In this document: positions 1,654-8,578 of the stretch, piece after piece
Numbering within the stretch: the stretch's first letter is position 1
Layout of the letters: each line of letters starts with the position of its first letter
Origin: Bacteroidales bacterium
Lineage (GTDB): Bacteria; Bacteroidota; Bacteroidia; Bacteroidales; JAAUTT01
Direction of reading: 5' to 3'
Length of the DNA stretch: 43,078 nt
Assembly (NCBI GenBank): GCA_025361285.1
Contig: JANYAP010000061.1
Coordinates: forward strand, 1 to 43,078
Notes under the pieces: generated by a model
Seen by the model: only the letters and a program-made list of their open reading frames with translations
Databases searched by the model: none
Told to the model about the DNA's origin: nothing
Position numbers and translations under genes: made by a program

Positions 1654-3573
1654 ATGAAAAAGCTTAAATCTCTTATCCTATTATCTAAAACAATATTCGG
1701 TATAGTTTTAGTTATAAGCATTTTATCATCATTAGTTTTTAGTTGCGCCGAAAAACAGTTAACCGATATTACCCCTCCTAAACCATCAACCTTGGTTTCA
1801 CCTAGCGAAGCCGATACCATATATGGTAATGAAGTAACCTTAAAATGGACCAACGCCATTGACCGAAGCGATATTCAAGGTTATGAGTTAGTTTATTACA
1901 AAGATTATTACGAAGGATATGGGTACGACAGCACCTTTATATCATTAAAAGATACAACTACCTCTTATACCATACCCACGGCATTGTTAAACGGATATTA
2001 CCGTTGGAAATTAAGGGCTACCGATAGGGCTGGCAATACCAATGATTTTGGTTCTGAACAATCGTTCTATGTTAAGTCATCAGATCCGATTTCGACAATT
2101 GAAAATTACAAACCTGTAACTGTATCGCCCAAGACTGGGAGGATAATTCCCTTCAAAGATGTTACCCTTAAATGGAAATTTCCATACAAAAGAAGCGATA
2201 TCGAATCGTTTGTTTTAATATTCGGCGACATAAAATATGACAATATTACCGATACTACTTTTACCTTTACCGATACCTTACCAGAAGGACGTTATAAGTG
2301 GAAGGTTTTAGCTGTGGATAAAAATGGACATAGCTATGGGTATTGCGAAACCGATAGCTTTTCAACTTCGGCTCTAGATAACTTTAAGCCAATATTGATA
2401 TCGCCAATTTCAACTTTTACTGAACTTACTGGCGATACAGTTAAGTTTACGTGGCAATATACTGGCGAGGAAGATAAAACCTACACCTACACTTTAAATC
2501 TTAACGGAACTGAATACACCGGAATAACCAGTACAAGCTTTACCCTTACCGATAAGTTGAACGTTGGCATTTACGAGTGGAAAGTGAAGGCTATCGATAA
2601 TGAAGGTAAAAGTTATGGTTATGGCGTACCTAAAAGCTTTTTAGTTTCGGAGCTGCCGATATTAATATCGCCAATCTCAACGTTGTATGAACTTACAGGC
2701 TACGCAGTTAAGTTTACGTGGCAATATACTGGCGATCCTAATAAAACCTACACTTATGTATTAAATGTTAACGGAACAGAATACACCGGAATAACCAGTA
2801 CAAGTTTTACCCTTACCGACAAGTTGCCTGGCGGTAATTACGAGTGGAAAGTGAAGGCTATTGATAATAACGGTGAAACATTTGGCTATAGCAAGCCTAA
2901 ATACTTTATTGTTGAAACCATGGCAAACGCATTAACCGGTGGAAGCGTTAAAATTACGGCAAATTTAAACCGCTATCCTGGAGCATGGTTTAAGGCCTTT
3001 TGCTATACCTGCTTCGTTGTTAAAATTGAGCGCAACGCAGAGGGAAATATCATACAAGAAAAAAAATTCCGTGAAACAGATACAAAACAGGGAGGTTCAT
3101 GGAGTCCTATAACCGCTATGGGCGATAAAGAAACTTTTGTTAAAACAATTCAAATGAATGCACTTAATTATATGGAAATGCAAAAGTATTGGCTTAATAT
3201 GTCCAAAGAAAATGTTATTGGCCCATCTGGTAATGTACAGCTTAACAGTAGAGTTGATGGTTGGACAGGTGCCTCGTTAGTTGACGACCCCAGTAGCAGT
3301 TCAATGATGATGAAAAAAGATCTGGTAAAAACGTGGGACTTAAAAGATAATAATGGCAATGTGGTATCACCAGGCGAGTACAAAATTTATCTTGAATATA
3401 CGGAACTCAATACTGAAGGTCCGCGATGTTTTATATTAATTAAACTTAACAATAAACCTCTAACCTATTCGAAAGTAGATGCCATAGTTCCAAAAGTAAC
3501 AGATCCAAATTCTTGGGGTCTCAATAAACGATCGAATTTTAACAAATTCGATGTTGTATATACACCCAATTAA
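1654..3573 (+). CDS. Fn3-repeat lipoprotein with DUF2271-like C-terminal domain
   Basis: A 639-residue exported lipoprotein: a hydrophobic signal ends in L-V-F-S-C with the lipidated cysteine at residue 31. Four fibronectin-III-like repeats follow (about 40-135, 145-235, 246-333 and 335-421), each ending in a Y-x-W-K-x-x-A-x-D signature. The last two are near-duplicates at DNA level as well. The C-terminal part (421-639) has a C-Y-T-C pair, a V-D-G-W-T-G-A-S segment (Asp535-Ser541) and W-D-L-K-D-N-N-G-N-V-V-S-P-G-E-Y. To me this resembles the DUF2271 family, found near extracytosolic flavin/iron redox genes. The ATG at 1654 gives the lipoprotein signal; an ATG at 1624 would add ten residues. 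It is the first gene of the redox operon, 13 bases before the next. The Fn3 and lipoprotein calls are firm; the DUF2271 call is inference. Confidence 0.75.
   Translation: MKKLKSLILLSKTIFGIVLVISILSSLVFSCAEKQLTDITPPKPSTLVSPSEADTIYGNEVTLKWTNAIDRSDIQGYELVYYKDYYEGYGYDSTFISLKDTTTSYTIPTALLNGYYRWKLRATDRAGNTNDFGSEQSFYVKSSDPISTIENYKPVTVSPKTGRIIPFKDVTLKWKFPYKRSDIESFVLIFGDIKYDNITDTTFTFTDTLPEGRYKWKVLAVDKNGHSYGYCETDSFSTSALDNFKPILISPISTFTELTGDTVKFTWQYTGEEDKTYTYTLNLNGTEYTGITSTSFTLTDKLNVGIYEWKVKAIDNEGKSYGYGVPKSFLVSELPILISPISTLYELTGYAVKFTWQYTGDPNKTYTYVLNVNGTEYTGITSTSFTLTDKLPGGNYEWKVKAIDNNGETFGYSKPKYFIVETMANALTGGSVKITANLNRYPGAWFKAFCYTCFVVKIERNAEGNIIQEKKFRETDTKQGGSWSPITAMGDKETFVKTIQMNALNYMEMQKYWLNMSKENVIGPSGNVQLNSRVDGWTGASLVDDPSSSSMMMKKDLVKTWDLKDNNGNVVSPGEYKIYLEYTELNTEGPRCFILIKLNNKPLTYSKVDAIVPKVTDPNSWGLNKRSNFNKFDVVYTPN
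2389..2913 (+). repeat. intragenic direct duplication of an Fn3 module
   Basis: Segments 2389-2649 and 2656-2913 are highly similar in DNA. Long identical runs include the stretches encoding V-K-F-T-W-Q-Y-T-G, T-E-Y-T-G-I-T-S-T-S-F-T-L-T-D-K-L and Y-E-W-K-V-K-A-I-D. This indicates a recent in-frame duplication of one Fn3 repeat and a site where copy number could change by slippage or recombination. Confidence 0.85.
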
Positions 3574-3586
3574 GTTTTTTTGAATA

Positions 3587-3970
3587 ATGCGAATATTTAA
3601 AGTAATAAAAGTAATAGTTATTTCGATATTACTTTCTTGTGGATTTTTATTGAATGTAAACGCCTGCGAGATAATATTTAAGGTAATAAGTGAAGAAAAA
3701 AAGGAATATAAAGAGGGCGACGAAATAATTTTCTCTATTGAAGTTAAGCTTACGCACCGGGTTTGCCCAATTGCTATGCAGGACACGAAGTTCACCTACG
3801 ATGGCATTAAGGTAATAGGTGCAACTAAATGGGAAGAAACGAAACCGGGTATATGGACTCGTAAAATAAAGTCGCAAGTAATTAACAATGGGAAAACTAC
3901 CATAATGCTTTCGGCTCAGCGAAAATGCGAAAAGGATGGAGGCTTTAGCACAATACAGCTTAATAAGTAA
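3587..3970 (+). CDS. small secreted cysteine-containing protein, paralogue of 7157-7519
   Basis: A 127-residue protein with a clear N-terminal signal peptide (hydrophobic core about residues 9-22, A-C near 26-27). The mature domain of about 100 residues looks all-beta. I do not recognise a named family. It aligns with the protein at 7157-7519 in the same operon: Y-x-x-x-D-x-I, then V-K-L-x(4)-C-x(3)-M-Q-x-T-K, then E-x-K-x-G-x-W, then a second Cys near the end (R-K-C-E). The two shared cysteines could form a disulfide or bind a metal or cofactor. It sits 13 bases after the Fn3 lipoprotein and 6 bases before the polyferredoxin gene, so co-expression is likely. It probably acts in the periplasm or on the envelope surface with the neighbouring redox proteins. 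Confidence 0.8.
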   Translation: MRIFKVIKVIVISILLSCGFLLNVNACEIIFKVISEEKKEYKEGDEIIFSIEVKLTHRVCPIAMQDTKFTYDGIKVIGATKWEETKPGIWTRKIKSQVINNGKTTIMLSAQRKCEKDGGFSTIQLNK

Positions 3971-3976
3971 TTACCT

Positions 3977-5476
3977 ATGCGTCAAACAGTTACTAATATT
4001 AATCGTGCATTTTGTCGTTTCGTATTAACCCTTTGTTTATCGGTAATTTCATTTGCTGCTTATGCCACCGATAGTATTCAAACCGGTGCCAATTGTCCAT
4101 ACTACCAATCGTGCGAAGTAAGCACCCAGTCGCATTTTTCAGTAGAGTTGCTATTAAAGATGGCCGGCATGTTGTTAATAGTTTTTCTTGCTACTCGTTT
4201 CTTTTATTTAAAAAAATCACATTTAAAATATATTATTATTGGTTCGGCGGTTTCGTTGGTAATTGTTGGAGCTACTCTATTTCCAATTGTTTATAATTAC
4301 CAAACGCCATCCGAAAAATGCGATACCGCCTTAATATCTAAGCATACTGGCACTTCCAATTCCAATGAGTTTTTTGCAGCCGGAAACGAATTTGAGTCCG
4401 GCAACAAAACTTCAACGCCTAAAACTGATGATTTTGAGTCCGCTAACAACGAATTTAAAACTGATAGCAATAAAACTACTTCCAATAACAGTGAGTTCGA
4501 AAACGTGGATAATGAATTCACTAAACCAGGTACATCTACAAAATCTACATTCGATACGCTCAATGGCAGTTTGGACGAGTTTTCCGCTAGCTCCGACGAA
4601 TTTTCCGCAACAACAAATTCAAAATCCGATTCGGCAATCACCAAACCCACTGATAAGCATTCGTTTAAATTAATTAACGATAGCGAATGGGGTTTATTTT
4701 ATCGCATAATTGTTTTGTTTATTCTCACAGCCATTTGCGGATACATGGTTCGATACGCTTGGTTTCGGAATACCAGAGGCATTGTGCTGCTTTCTTCTGT
4801 AATTTATTTAGGCTTTATTTTAGGTGCTTGCCCTTGTATGATAATGAGCTTAATAAATTTCATGCTTTTTACCATTGGGCACGATGTGTCGTTTACCTCT
4901 ATGTTGTGGTTTTTAGGACTTTTGCCGCTCACTTATTTCTTTGGGAAAGCTTGGTGCGGCTGGTTATGCCATTTGGGGGCTTTGCAGGAGCTTATTTATT
5001 TACCAGAAAAACTTACTGTGCTTACAAGTGCTAGGGCTCAAAAGGTTTTACGTATTTCGCGTATTGTATTTTTGATTGCGCTAATTTCGCAAGTAATTAT
5101 CTCACGAAGTAATTTATTCGTTAAAATTGACCCATTTAAGGTAGCATACAACTTATTCTCGGCAAATGTAACTGGCTATGTGTTATTGGTATTGTTACTT
5201 TTAACGTCGGTATTAATTTACCGCCCATTTTGCAGAGCTGTATGTCCGGTGGGATTAATATTGGGCTGGGTAAGTAAACTAAAAGGAGCTCAGAAAATTG
5301 TAATCGACCAAAATTGCACAAACTGCTATTCGTGTAGCCATGCTTGCACACATAAAGCAATTGTTAAGGATCACAAGAAGACAATTATAAATGTTGAAGA
5401 TTGTATATATTGCGGCAAATGCCTGGAAACATGTAAAGTAAAACACGCCATAAAACCTAATAATTTTTTAAAATGA
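3977..5476 (+). CDS. NapH/NosR-like membrane polyferredoxin with a long acidic-Phe repeat loop
   Basis: A 499-residue membrane protein. It has an N-terminal signal-like helix, two helices (about 55-73 and 82-104), a Ser/Asn/Thr-rich loop (about 105-228) and a C-terminal 5-6 helix core. The core has C-G-W-L-C-H-L-G (Cys327, Cys331) and C-R-A-V-C-P-V-G (Cys419, Cys423), the paired motifs of NapH/NosR/CcoG-type proteins, plus an earlier G-A-C-P-C (Cys285, Cys287). Two 4Fe-4S motifs follow: Cys447/450/453/457 and Cys476/479/482/486. The second has Lys where Pro usually follows. Such proteins pass electrons across or along the inner membrane. The loop holds about nine x-E-F/x-D-F motifs. No NapA, NosZ or oxidase genes are nearby, so the partner is unknown. 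It overlaps the next gene by four bases. Family call firm, pathway open. Confidence 0.88.
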   Translation: MRQTVTNINRAFCRFVLTLCLSVISFAAYATDSIQTGANCPYYQSCEVSTQSHFSVELLLKMAGMLLIVFLATRFFYLKKSHLKYIIIGSAVSLVIVGATLFPIVYNYQTPSEKCDTALISKHTGTSNSNEFFAAGNEFESGNKTSTPKTDDFESANNEFKTDSNKTTSNNSEFENVDNEFTKPGTSTKSTFDTLNGSLDEFSASSDEFSATTNSKSDSAITKPTDKHSFKLINDSEWGLFYRIIVLFILTAICGYMVRYAWFRNTRGIVLLSSVIYLGFILGACPCMIMSLINFMLFTIGHDVSFTSMLWFLGLLPLTYFFGKAWCGWLCHLGALQELIYLPEKLTVLTSARAQKVLRISRIVFLIALISQVIISRSNLFVKIDPFKVAYNLFSANVTGYVLLVLLLLTSVLIYRPFCRAVCPVGLILGWVSKLKGAQKIVIDQNCTNCYSCSHACTHKAIVKDHKKTIINVEDCIYCGKCLETCKVKHAIKPNNFLK

Positions 5477-6819
5477 AGAAATTAGCTACTATCATTCTTC
5501 TCAGTTTTATTGTAACCCTTAGTAATGCGCAATGGGAATGTCGCAGTAAAATCGGGGCTTCGCTGCGTCCTCTTGGTACAAGTCCATTTTCGGTGGGTAA
5601 CGAATTAATAACCTCTACAGGTTACTTAAATAATAGCCTTATACACAACACTATGGTGTTTGGAAGTTTCGATTTTTTAAAACAAAACCACAACATATAT
5701 GTGGAGGGTGGCTATAAATTTTGGTATCGCACTCAGTACAATATGCCATTACGCGATAATAACGATCCGTTAAATACCGACACTGTAAATTTTACCAGCT
5801 ACACTAATAGATTTGGCCTGCGCGAGGCATTTTATCGATACCAGAATTCAAAAACCCGGTTAGTTACCGGATTACAATCGGTTAAACTGAACGATCATTT
5901 TTTGGTAAACGAACGTATGATTGGCGTTTCGTTGAATCAAAAGGTTGGATCGTTCGAGGTAAATGTTACTGGCGGTACCGTATCGCGCGATTATGCCCGT
6001 AATGGTTCGTTTTGCAGTGTACGCTATTTGTACGATATCTTTCCCGATCGCAAAATAGCTCCAATGGGTGTAGGTTTGGGGCAAACCAACTTTGGTTCGG
6101 CGTCGTTAACCTGGTTCCCAGGTCGCAAAAGCAGCAGTGTAAGCACTGCCGGAGCTGATGAATTTGCAACCGACGAATTTGCCGATGGTAAAGTAGATGA
6201 TAAGAGGTCGTTAAAGTTGGAGTCGGTGGGAGCTATTGCTTATTTGGAGCAAGGCGATATGATTACTACATTAACAAATGATTCTACAATAAAAGCTATT
6301 CAACCCATTTTGGTCGGTGGCTTTTTAACTCTTAATTTGTTCAATATACTCGATTTAAAAACTGAAGCATTGTTGCAGATGGCCGAGAGCAATTTAGGAG
6401 CTGTTGTGTTTGCATCGTTGGGAAAAGATTATATTTTGCGCTGTGGCAATAAATTAGGGTTCGAAACCAAGTACTATCATTTTTTTGAGTCCGATTCCGG
6501 TGCTCGACCGCTAATGTCGTTCACAAACTTATTTTTAGGCGAAGTGGTTAGGCTCGATGGCATTGATATGCCCTTATGGCAAGTACACGCTAAATATAGT
6601 ATGACAAAGCAAAAGCTTCATTTTAAAGTACAATACGTTGGGCAAGTAAACGATTCAAAATTACGCGAGACAGATATTGAAATAGGTAAAATGTTTTTCT
6701 CGAAATTACTTGTAAATCTTCAACTTGGATATATTGAAAGCAGCGTACCTTTCGATTCGAATACCGACAATACGAAAAACACATATATATCACGCATCGA
6801 ACTACGATATAACTTTTAA
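5473..6819 (+). CDS. putative outer-membrane beta-barrel protein
   Basis: A 448-residue protein with a cleavable signal peptide (M-K-K-L... ending S-N-A-Q near residue 20), many amphipathic beta-strand stretches, and a C-terminus I-E-L-R-Y-N-F. The terminal aromatic residue is typical of outer-membrane barrels. I do not recognise a named family. Around residues 228-240 it has A-D-E-F-A-T-D-E-F-A-D, the same kind of acid-Phe motif repeated in the loop of the polyferredoxin encoded just upstream. The start codon overlaps the upstream stop (ATGA), implying translational coupling. The context suggests an outer-membrane partner of the redox system, either a scaffold or porin, but this is inference. 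It contains no haem-binding CxxCH motif, so it is not itself a cytochrome. Confidence 0.7.
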   Translation: MKKLATIILLSFIVTLSNAQWECRSKIGASLRPLGTSPFSVGNELITSTGYLNNSLIHNTMVFGSFDFLKQNHNIYVEGGYKFWYRTQYNMPLRDNNDPLNTDTVNFTSYTNRFGLREAFYRYQNSKTRLVTGLQSVKLNDHFLVNERMIGVSLNQKVGSFEVNVTGGTVSRDYARNGSFCSVRYLYDIFPDRKIAPMGVGLGQTNFGSASLTWFPGRKSSSVSTAGADEFATDEFADGKVDDKRSLKLESVGAIAYLEQGDMITTLTNDSTIKAIQPILVGGFLTLNLFNILDLKTEALLQMAESNLGAVVFASLGKDYILRCGNKLGFETKYYHFFESDSGARPLMSFTNLFLGEVVRLDGIDMPLWQVHAKYSMTKQKLHFKVQYVGQVNDSKLRETDIEIGKMFFSKLLVNLQLGYIESSVPFDSNTDNTKNTYISRIELRYNF

Positions 6820-6830
6820 CCTAAATACCT

Positions 6831-7160
6831 ATGACCTCGAAAAATTATAACAGACGTAATTTCTTAAAATCAACCGGAAAACTTTTGGGCATAGTTGGTG
6901 TTGGCGCCGTAATTGGCAGTAGCCTTATTTCGTGCGAAAAGGGTATGTATCCGTATTATTTTATCGATATAGATTTGTGTACTAAGTGCGAAAAGTGTGT
7001 AACTGTATGTAAATACAATGCTATTACCTATCAAACTAAAAAAATCGACAACAGCGAACAAGGTTTCAAATATTTAAATATCGACAATAATAAATGCTAT
7101 AAATGTGGCAAATGTATCGATGTTTGTCCGTACAATGCGCTGTTTATGTTGCAATCATGA
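6831..7160 (+). CDS. exported two-cluster [4Fe-4S] ferredoxin with Tat-like signal and lipobox
   Basis: A 109-residue protein. The N-terminus has N-R-R-N-F-L-K, a twin-arginine signal (Arg8-Arg9), followed by a hydrophobic segment and L-I-S-C (Cys35), a plausible lipobox. The mature part has two C-x2-C-x2-C-x3-C motifs (Cys50/53/56/60 and Cys89/92/95/99), so it should hold two 4Fe-4S clusters. Tat export fits cofactor insertion in the cytoplasm before transport. It would be an extracytoplasmic, probably lipid-anchored, electron carrier exchanging electrons with the membrane polyferredoxin upstream. It is smaller than typical DmsB/HybA subunits, and no molybdopterin partner is present. The gene starts 11 bases after the barrel gene and overlaps the next by four bases. 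Confidence 0.88.
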   Translation: MTSKNYNRRNFLKSTGKLLGIVGVGAVIGSSLISCEKGMYPYYFIDIDLCTKCEKCVTVCKYNAITYQTKKIDNSEQGFKYLNIDNNKCYKCGKCIDVCPYNALFMLQS

Positions 7161-7519
7161 TCAAAATAGCCACACTTTTTTTCTTAATTTTTAATATTCA
7201 ACTGCTTGCGGCACAAGCAAAAATTACGCAAACGTCGGCAATTAAAAATTATTATTCAATTAACGACACCATAGTAATCGATGTGGTAGTTAAGCTAGAT
7301 CCATTAACTTGTACCGATGGAATGCAAAAAACAAAAACTTATTTGTCGGGCTTTAAAATATATAAAAACAAAGAATGGGTTGAGCTAAAAAAGGGGTATT
7401 GGAAAGGTACTTTTACACTTTTAGTGGTTGGTAATCGAAAGCAAAAGGGGTGCTTTACAGTTGTAAGGGTAACCGATAAAGATCAGTTAAAATCGCAGTT
7501 TATTGTAAACACAAAGTGA
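7157..7519 (+). CDS. small secreted cysteine-containing protein, paralogue of 3587-3970
   Basis: A 120-residue protein with an N-terminal signal peptide (core F-F-L-I-F-N-I-Q-L-L, likely cleavage near A-A-Q-A). The mature domain shares length, order and key residues with the product of 3587-3970: V-K-L-x(4)-C-x(3)-M-Q-x-T-K, E-x-K-x-G-x-W, and a second cysteine (K-G-C-F). I chose the ATG at 7157 because it overlaps the ferredoxin stop (ATGA) and directly gives a signal peptide; an in-frame start at 7103 would read through ferredoxin coding sequence. Family unknown. Two divergent copies in one operon suggest a heterodimer or two substrate-specific versions of one periplasmic module. Confidence 0.8.
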   Translation: MIKIATLFFLIFNIQLLAAQAKITQTSAIKNYYSINDTIVIDVVVKLDPLTCTDGMQKTKTYLSGFKIYKNKEWVELKKGYWKGTFTLLVVGNRKQKGCFTVVRVTDKDQLKSQFIVNTK

Positions 7520-7576
7520 AGTTAAAATTTCTTTATTGAGAAATGAAGACTTGTGTCATTTAAAAAATTTATATTG

Positions 7577-8578
7577 ATGATTAAAATATTCAAAATAGAT
7601 CAAAAACAATTTAATACTATTGCCAAGGTAATTGTGATTGTTGCTTTTACGTTGATTGTAACCGATTTTATTTACCGACAAGTTGCCGGAATAACTTACG
7701 ATAATCGCGACCAGTGTATTATTTATAACTACATGCCTCGTTGGCTTTTTTTAGTTTACGAATATTTCTTCGAATTAATTATGGTAGTTATAATAGGTGT
7801 TTTTTCGGGAGTTCTTATTAATCAATACATTACAAAGGTTAAGCGGTTTTTCCCAAAAAATCAGATATTAGCATTTGTTTATGGTTCAATTATTCCGGTA
7901 TGCTCATGTGGCGTACTTCCGTTAATTGAAATAATGAAAGAGCGAGTTAAATTACGGGTAATAATTACATTTATATTAGCGGCACCATTGCTTAATCCTT
8001 TTATTATTGCACTTGCATTCTCACTTATGGGTTTTAAGTACGCCATTATTAGGATATTAGCATCTTTTATTCTTGCTATACTTGGTGGTTTGCTTTTGGA
8101 ATGGGTTGCGAAATTGCTCAACGAAACTAATATTGGCAAATACGATTCGTGCCGAATTAACTGCGAACCAACTAATAGAGATGTTTTTGGACAAACCCTT
8201 CAGGTTACTCTTAAAATGGTACCTTATATTATGATAGCTGGCGTAATGGCGCTTTCGCTTGAATGGTTCGACCCGAAAAAGCACCTGGAATTATTAAATT
8301 TAGGAAACAGTTGGTTAACAATGTTTTTCATGGGAATAATTGGCATACCAATATATATTTGTAATGGCGGCGACATGTTTTTTCTAAAACCATTACTTGC
8401 TTATACCGATTTGTCGTTGGGGTCGTCGATGGTTTTTTCGCTTACCGCATCCTCTGTTTGCATTACATCAATTGTAATGTTAACCAAGTTTATTGGTCGA
8501 AAACTTACCACTGCCCTTGTACTTATAATATTTATTTTAAGCTACATGATAGGAGCGGTATTAAACTTCTTATTTTAA
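7577..8578 (+). CDS. DUF318 / ArsP-type permease
   Basis: A 333-residue multi-spanning protein with about eight hydrophobic segments. The first half has P-V-C-S-C-G-V-L-P (Cys109, Cys111), the hallmark of the DUF318/UPF0718 permease family (PF03773). The second half has the matching P-I-Y-I-C-N-G-G-D segment. Some members (ArsP) export methylated or aromatic trivalent arsenicals through conserved cysteines; for most members the substrate is unknown. I preferred the ATG at 7577. A GTG at 7553 would add eight residues and cannot be excluded. It is the last gene of the redox operon, 57 bases after the small secreted protein, and no ars genes are nearby. The context hints at transport of a thiol-reactive or redox-active species, which is inference. 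Confidence 0.85.
   Translation: MIKIFKIDQKQFNTIAKVIVIVAFTLIVTDFIYRQVAGITYDNRDQCIIYNYMPRWLFLVYEYFFELIMVVIIGVFSGVLINQYITKVKRFFPKNQILAFVYGSIIPVCSCGVLPLIEIMKERVKLRVIITFILAAPLLNPFIIALAFSLMGFKYAIIRILASFILAILGGLLLEWVAKLLNETNIGKYDSCRINCEPTNRDVFGQTLQVTLKMVPYIMIAGVMALSLEWFDPKKHLELLNLGNSWLTMFFMGIIGIPIYICNGGDMFFLKPLLAYTDLSLGSSMVFSLTASSVCITSIVMLTKFIGRKLTTALVLIIFILSYMIGAVLNFLF

Follow-up and report, generated by a model that had tools for sequence, protein, structure and literature searches.

The 43,078-nucleotide contig JANYAP010000061.1 of a Bacteroidales bacterium (assembly GCA_025361285.1), hereafter the window, carries an operon of seven plus-strand genes, g1 to g7, which may encode an electron relay of the cell envelope. 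The gene g1 (1654~3573) encodes a lipoprotein (lipobox VFSC) with Fn3-type repeats and a C-terminal DUF2271-like domain, g2 (3587~3970) a small secreted Ig-like β protein, g3 (3977~5476) a NapH-like membrane Fe-S protein, and g4 (5473~6819) a predicted 18-strand outer-membrane porin. They are followed by g5 (6831~7160), a Tat-type lipoprotein ferredoxin, g6 (7157~7519), a paralogue of g2, and g7 (7577~8578), a DUF318/ArsP_1 permease. Rechecking the open reading frames (ORFs) reproduced the seven genes and coordinates of the preliminary description of this DNA, including the intergenic gaps of 13, 6, -4, 11, -4 and 57 bases computed from the coordinates; the ORFs of g1 and g7 are listed from in-frame starts further upstream, at 1624 and 7553, respectively. 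Pfam and NCBIfam gave no family above cut-off for g2, g4 and g6, and no cytochrome family among the seven operon proteins, the rest of the genome not being searched.

The gene cluster occurs mostly in uncultured Bacteroidota, and its recurring core consists of g2, g3 and g4. Among 32 genomes picked for having the barrel, the NapH gene adjoins the barrel gene on the same strand in 30, and the two exceptions are congeneric genomes with NapH on another contig. In addition, 28 of the 32 have g2 in the vicinity of the NapH/barrel pair, the four misses being two loci at contig ends and two in genomes where NapH and barrel are split. As the gene order recurs elsewhere, the cluster is more than chance; the homologues co-occur beyond this genome, and the lack of co-occurrence that had been set beforehand as refuting the proposal did not happen. 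By contrast, the seven genes did not hold as the fixed set that had been described, since the ferredoxin adjoins the barrel in 10/32 genomes and the permease in 3/32. The operon is one variant of a modular system, in which the core is conserved and the accessory genes vary. Searching with g4 as a single protein detected the barrel in nine of 149 genomes of the order, its own included, and searching with the g4 alignment in 19 of 393. Four other genomes of the same genus listed in the order sample are without the barrel, so that the distribution is patchy. A scan of named genomes yielded 21 loci, eight of them already known and 13 new, the latter including Lutibacter, Marinilabiliales, Ichthyobacteriaceae, a Zixiibacteriota and a metagenome-assembled genome of Myxococcota, for which mis-binning is possible.

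The g3 protein has two Fer4_5 matches in Pfam (56.8 bits over a cut-off of 22) and a 4Fe-4S dicluster domain, with two CxxCxxC motifs after the last hydrophobic stretch. This combination of Fer4_5 and a C-terminal 4Fe-4S pair is that of the PF12801-class NapH-like Fe-S membrane proteins, and g3 scores below the NapH/MauN model TIGR02163 (75.8 bits vs a cut-off of 213.05). Between its hydrophobic stretches lies an acidic segment (residues 105~239; 4289~4693), which contains a DEF/NEF array of seven [DN][DE]F motifs and is probably periplasmic, as judged by hydropathy and the charge rule. The porin g4 bears two DEF motifs, at residues 229~231 and 234~236 of a loop between strands 8 and 9 (residues 215~247; 6115~6213). 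These DEF arrays common to g3 and g4 were overlooked in the preliminary description.

The arrays are a general feature of both families. Of the 27 NapH rows extending into the N-terminal part, 24 have at least one DEF, as do 26 of the 28 barrels of at least 400 residues; a relaxed motif is found in every NapH and barrel row and proves less. The 27 NapH linkers hold 99 DEF motifs vs 6.3 (SD 2.4) in shuffles of the same linkers, and the 30 barrel linkers hold 90 vs 3.9 (SD 1.9). As the shuffles treat the repeats as independent although such arrays grow by duplication, the stronger argument is that two unrelated proteins share the motif. Among 299 other ORFs of the loci, 275 have no DEF, 22 have one and two have a pair within 60 residues, one of these two being a broken NapH piece. 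At the DNA level, a pattern of two GAT-coded DEF motifs gave 17 matches in eight genomes, 15 of them within these loci; of the remaining two, one lies in an ORF that reads as sigma-54-like and the other is out of frame. The residue following the motif is somewhat more alike within 22 partner pairs (cosine 0.457 vs 0.352, p 0.015), a comparison that ignores kinship and is not used as support. In eight genomes in which no barrel was found, the NapH relatives carry [DN][DE][F/W] in every row, and four of them have g2 nearby, which makes g2 a better candidate than the barrel for the reader of the motif. A distant NapH at locus L132 (7017~8207) has DEW/EEW repeats instead of DEF.

The AlphaFold model of g4 (mean pLDDT 71.5, pTM 0.72) contains 18 long strands and resembles AlgE, with a Z score of 27.2 and an RMSD of 3.2 over 320 residues at 11% identity; it is also Occ-like. 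This supports the outer-membrane barrel that had been proposed for g4. In its model, g4 shares an 18-strand barrel fold with the AlgE and Occ (OprD) porins, at 10~14% sequence identity, and differs from them in the disordered DEF loop in a periplasmic turn and in two invariant cysteines. The turns after even strands are 2~5 residues long, except for the 33 residues after strand 8, which are poorly ordered in the model (pLDDT <50 over residues 220~243) and hold the DEF motifs; the other long loops follow odd strands. Since the DEF loop comes after an even strand, and with the N-terminus taken as periplasmic, the model places the array on the periplasmic side, where that of g3 is also predicted. 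Searching the sequences of solved structures with the alignments of the barrel and of the small proteins returned nothing below E 0.17.

The g2 model adopts an Ig-like fold (pLDDT 87), most similar to pilin domains with a best Z score of 9.6. The two small proteins share 28% identity, in agreement with the paralogy previously claimed for them; g2-type rows have three cysteines conserved within their own branch, of which g6-type rows, including g6 itself, keep one. A search of PHROGs returned a single weak match, g6 at E 0.027. Gamma-adaptin ears bind acidic-phenylalanine peptides, and the likeness of g2 to these ears was given no weight, as it appeared at a Foldseek E of about 0.011 among many other Ig folds.

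The loci around this core fall into several variants. In variant A, the order NapH, barrel, ferredoxin, g6 and permease is shared by the window, L056 (whose contig is also that of L060) and L061, each of which has g2 upstream; this set thus recurs in two other loci, at 45~54% identity to the window in L056 and 36~49% in L061, where the ferredoxin was aligned to a long form. Variant B combines NapH and barrel with a long ferredoxin and has no permease (L017, L018, L021, L024, L054, L062 and G642, the latter comprising L057/L058), and L061, with a long ferredoxin, g6 and permease, bridges the two. Variant C has no ferredoxin next to the core, which in many cases lies beside a TetR-like gene (eight loci by pattern, Pfam-tested in L019 only) and an MMPL transporter (six loci: L019 and L022 by Pfam, L051, L075, L078 and L079 by BLAST). 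L055 and L077 consist of the core only. In L049 and L023, the core adjoins a gene cluster that looks rnf-like from its sequence.

Pfam found two Fer4 motifs in g5, which has the features of an exported ferredoxin, namely an RRNFL Tat motif, an LISC lipobox and two CxxCxxC motifs, and which scores below the NapG model (31 bits vs a cut-off of 269). A NapH-like protein and a Tat-exported lipoprotein ferredoxin make a plausible electron route from quinol to the envelope, which supports this part of the preliminary description. The ten barrel-adjacent ferredoxins have 2, 2, 9, 11, 13, 15, 15, 15, 19 and 19 CxxCxxC motifs, counts that would correspond to their numbers of clusters, and all ten have a Tat-type RRxF with a lipobox-like cysteine after it. 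Among them, g5 is a short relative of the Tat-exported lipoprotein polyferredoxins.

A GACPC motif of g3 (4820~4843) is predicted from sequence reading to sit at a periplasmic helix end, the hydropathy script giving no resolution of its side in the window protein. CPC is present in 10/30 barrel-adjacent NapH rows and kept at eight of the ten ferredoxin loci, the remaining two being an incomplete row and one with GCTGCP. GGPG replaces it in 16 rows and CPG in one, none of which has a neighbouring ferredoxin; one further row without a neighbouring ferredoxin is incomplete at this site. In the NapH tree, the rows with a replaced CPC that it contains, 16 in number, form one group (support 100/98), and the window pairs with L056 (96/92). 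As CPC is kept mostly at ferredoxin loci and lost in the ferredoxin-less clade, it seems loosely linked to the neighbouring ferredoxin.

The lipoprotein g1 had been described as Fn3/DUF2271-like. Pfam confirms the Fn3 part and gives no match to DUF2271 (PF10029), whereas a profile that we built from the DUF2271 domains of three relatives (L058, L061 and L130) finds g1 at 40.2 bits (E 1.2e-11), and BLASTP of g1 against the L061 domain spans the motif at E 8e-6. The segment VDGWTGASL of g1 aligns with VDAISGAS of L061 and VDAITGASL of L130, so that [ST]GA[ST] is aligned in all three, as TGAS (residues 538~541), SGAS and TGAS, respectively; TGAS of g1 is a candidate site of flavinylation by ApbE. 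DUF2271 proteins bearing [S/T]GA[S/T] are flavinylated by ApbE, according to the passages on this domain in Meheust et al. (2021, PMC8238504) and PMC11334425. One ApbE is encoded in the genome (C147:4293-5108, E 4.3e-80). Thus, g1 is a candidate flavinylated DUF2271 carrier rather than just an Fn3 lipoprotein. The absence of a terminal component from the operon, as previously described, holds for cytochromes and molybdoenzymes and no longer in full, since g1, as such a candidate, would be a possible terminal carrier.

Among the relatives, L058, L061 and L130 encode DUF2271 proteins. Type IX secretion tails are present on those of L058 and L130, with a weak match below cut-off in L061, and g1, a lipoprotein, has no type IX tail match. 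Two window proteins (14432~16381 and 18835~22059) have such tails (Por_Secre_tail), so type IX cargo is coded in this genome. In the barrel-less relative L130 (107~3703), a g2 gene adjoins the DUF2271 gene with its type IX tail, together with a DUF5777 barrel and a small CxxCH lipoprotein; the NapH gene, nearby and opposite this group, carries two DEF motifs. This arrangement may be a form of the relay that uses haem.

The permease g7 passes the ArsP_1/DUF318 cut-off (96.3 bits vs 32.3) and fails those of two other DUF318 permeases, the SO_0444 Cu/Zn efflux (68.9 of 300) and SaoE (61.1 of 325) models; a selenium-system reading through SaoE was dropped on the latter score. It has a CSCG motif, and seven cysteines are invariant across three permease orthologues. 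A second ArsP_1 match in the genome (G000:C43:2875-3537) contains three internal stop codons and is perhaps a broken gene.

We propose, with a probability of roughly 0.45, that the operon encodes an electron relay of the cell envelope that is linked to quinol and built of iron-sulfur and flavin proteins. In this relay, g3 would take electrons from quinol at the inner membrane, g5 would carry them through the periplasm, and g1, flavinylated by ApbE, would be the distal carrier, whose DUF2271 counterparts in relatives seem to reach the cell surface through the type IX system. The porin g4 would admit or release a redox substrate, and g7 would move a thiophilic substrate or product across the inner membrane. 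The periplasmic DEF arrays of g3 and g4 might serve as docking tags that both bind a single soluble partner, most likely g2/g6, and thereby bring the inner- and outer-membrane parts together. The tools show the genes and their families, the conserved core, the DEF arrays, the modelled barrel and the flavinylation motif; in this scheme we infer the direction of electron flow, the flavinylation, the DEF binder, the substrate and the role of the permease. The interpretation given in the preliminary description is partly supported.

Several observations weigh against such a relay. The ferredoxin gene is not beside the barrel in 22 of the 32 core loci, and L055 and L077 retain CPC though no ferredoxin lies nearby. 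DUF2271 was found in four loci only, so g1 is not core; its site is degenerate in L058 (TGPT), and ApbE lies outside the operon. Strict DEF is absent from NapH of L017, L062 and L077 and from the barrels of L018 and L077, which makes the motif weakest in the most distant phyla, and its occurrence on NapH where no barrel was found means that the tag is not for the barrel alone. In a phylum-wide sample, the barrel was found in one of 395 genomes, its own, with at most four candidates scored per genome among the matches shown. Moreover, an 18-strand porin is presumably too narrow, from the sizes we assume, to sheathe a ferredoxin rod.

A bolder form of the relay, which we consider doubtful, is a cytochrome-free conduit across the whole envelope. 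Electrons would pass from menaquinol to the NapH-like protein, along a lipoprotein acting as a wire, with as many as about 19 4Fe-4S clusters, and on to flavinylated DUF2271 proteins at the surface. Matching multivalent DEF arrays, recognised by a small Ig-like adaptor in the periplasm, would join the inner and outer parts. If true, this conduit would add a new type of extracellular electron transfer together with a new periplasmic code of short linear motifs.

Alternatively, the electrons of g3 might reduce a disulfide of g2 and then the porin pair Cys23/Cys181, thereby opening a redox-gated porin, with ferredoxin and DUF2271 as add-ons in some lineages. Such a thiol relay agrees with the core status of g2 and g4 and not of the ferredoxin, with the invariance of Cys23 and Cys181 in all 19 barrels of alignment A6, and with the three conserved cysteines of g2, which common DEF tags would bring to both g3 and g4. 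However, g6 lacks two of the three cysteines, no CxxC thioredoxin motif was noticed in g2, and the polyferredoxins with up to 19 motifs are left unexplained; we regard such a thiol relay as unlikely. A role in metal(loid) detoxification or assimilation seems to us similarly unlikely. Here, an oxidised metal(loid) would enter through the porin and be reduced by the relay in the periplasm, and the product would be exported or imported by the DUF318 permease. This role is suggested by the family of g7, its CSCG motif and seven invariant cysteines, its weak sub-cut-off scores to SO_0444 and SaoE, and the link of flavinylation to iron transport genes in the part of PMC8238504 that treats them. Nevertheless, the permease is confined to the three variant A loci, and the window operon contains no metal regulator or reductase.

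It is less probable still that the system is one of substrate transport, whose relay serves an unseen reductase coded elsewhere, the core and the MMPL/LolA-like or permease modules sharing only the porin. The barrel does resemble substrate channels and AlgE, and the core of one clade stands beside TetR-like and MMPL genes with no ferredoxin, but no reductase was found beside the loci examined, and DEF on NapH would be left unexplained. Finally, a chance neighbourhood of unrelated genes, to which the differing accessory genes might point, is extremely improbable in view of the core order kept in 30/32 genomes and the five-gene order kept in three loci.

Compared to known systems, the operon shares with NapGH-type and NapH-like systems (NapH, NosR, PceC) the membrane Fer4_5 protein with two C-terminal 4Fe-4S motifs, and g5 would be the counterpart of NapG as an exported Tat ferredoxin. 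It differs in the periplasmic DEF array, the porin and g2 partners, the lack of a reductase and the sub-cut-off NapH score. With the flavinylated DUF2271/NapH-like clusters, as far as PMC8238504 describes them, it has in common a DUF2271-like domain with [S/T]GA[S/T], a NapH-like protein and a genomic ApbE, whereas neither ApbE nor an FMN-binding domain lies in the operon; in the part of that paper describing the clusters, we found no porin, polyferredoxin or DEF arrays. The literature search, among the matches listed and with subscription papers outside its scope, revealed no described system of this kind.

Porin-cytochrome conduits of the MtrCAB type comprise quinol oxidation at the inner membrane, a periplasmic multi-centre carrier and an outer-membrane barrel, which has 26 strands in MtrB. 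The proposed relay has the same set of parts, with 4Fe-4S motifs instead of haems and 18 strands in g4 vs 26 in MtrB; g4 is probably not a sheath as in that type.

Elsewhere in the window, an AbiEii-type nucleotidyltransferase toxin gene (PF08843, 103.9 bits) overlaps an upstream gene in antitoxin position, the pair occupying 34061~34699 and 34683~35516; the upstream gene has no Pfam match.

Altogether, the system is real, conserved and modular, and is a variation on NapH/flavin envelope electron transfer, while its shared motif is unusual and could make it more than a variant. If the proposed relay is right, it would represent an envelope electron route of Bacteroidota that is invisible to searches for multihaem cytochromes, and a bacterial case of a repeated short linear motif carried by both a redox protein of the inner membrane and a porin of the outer membrane. 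Each link of the relay is testable with single proteins, and the combination of a DEF-bearing NapH, a DEF-bearing barrel and g2 provides a handle for finding such systems in uncultured anaerobes.

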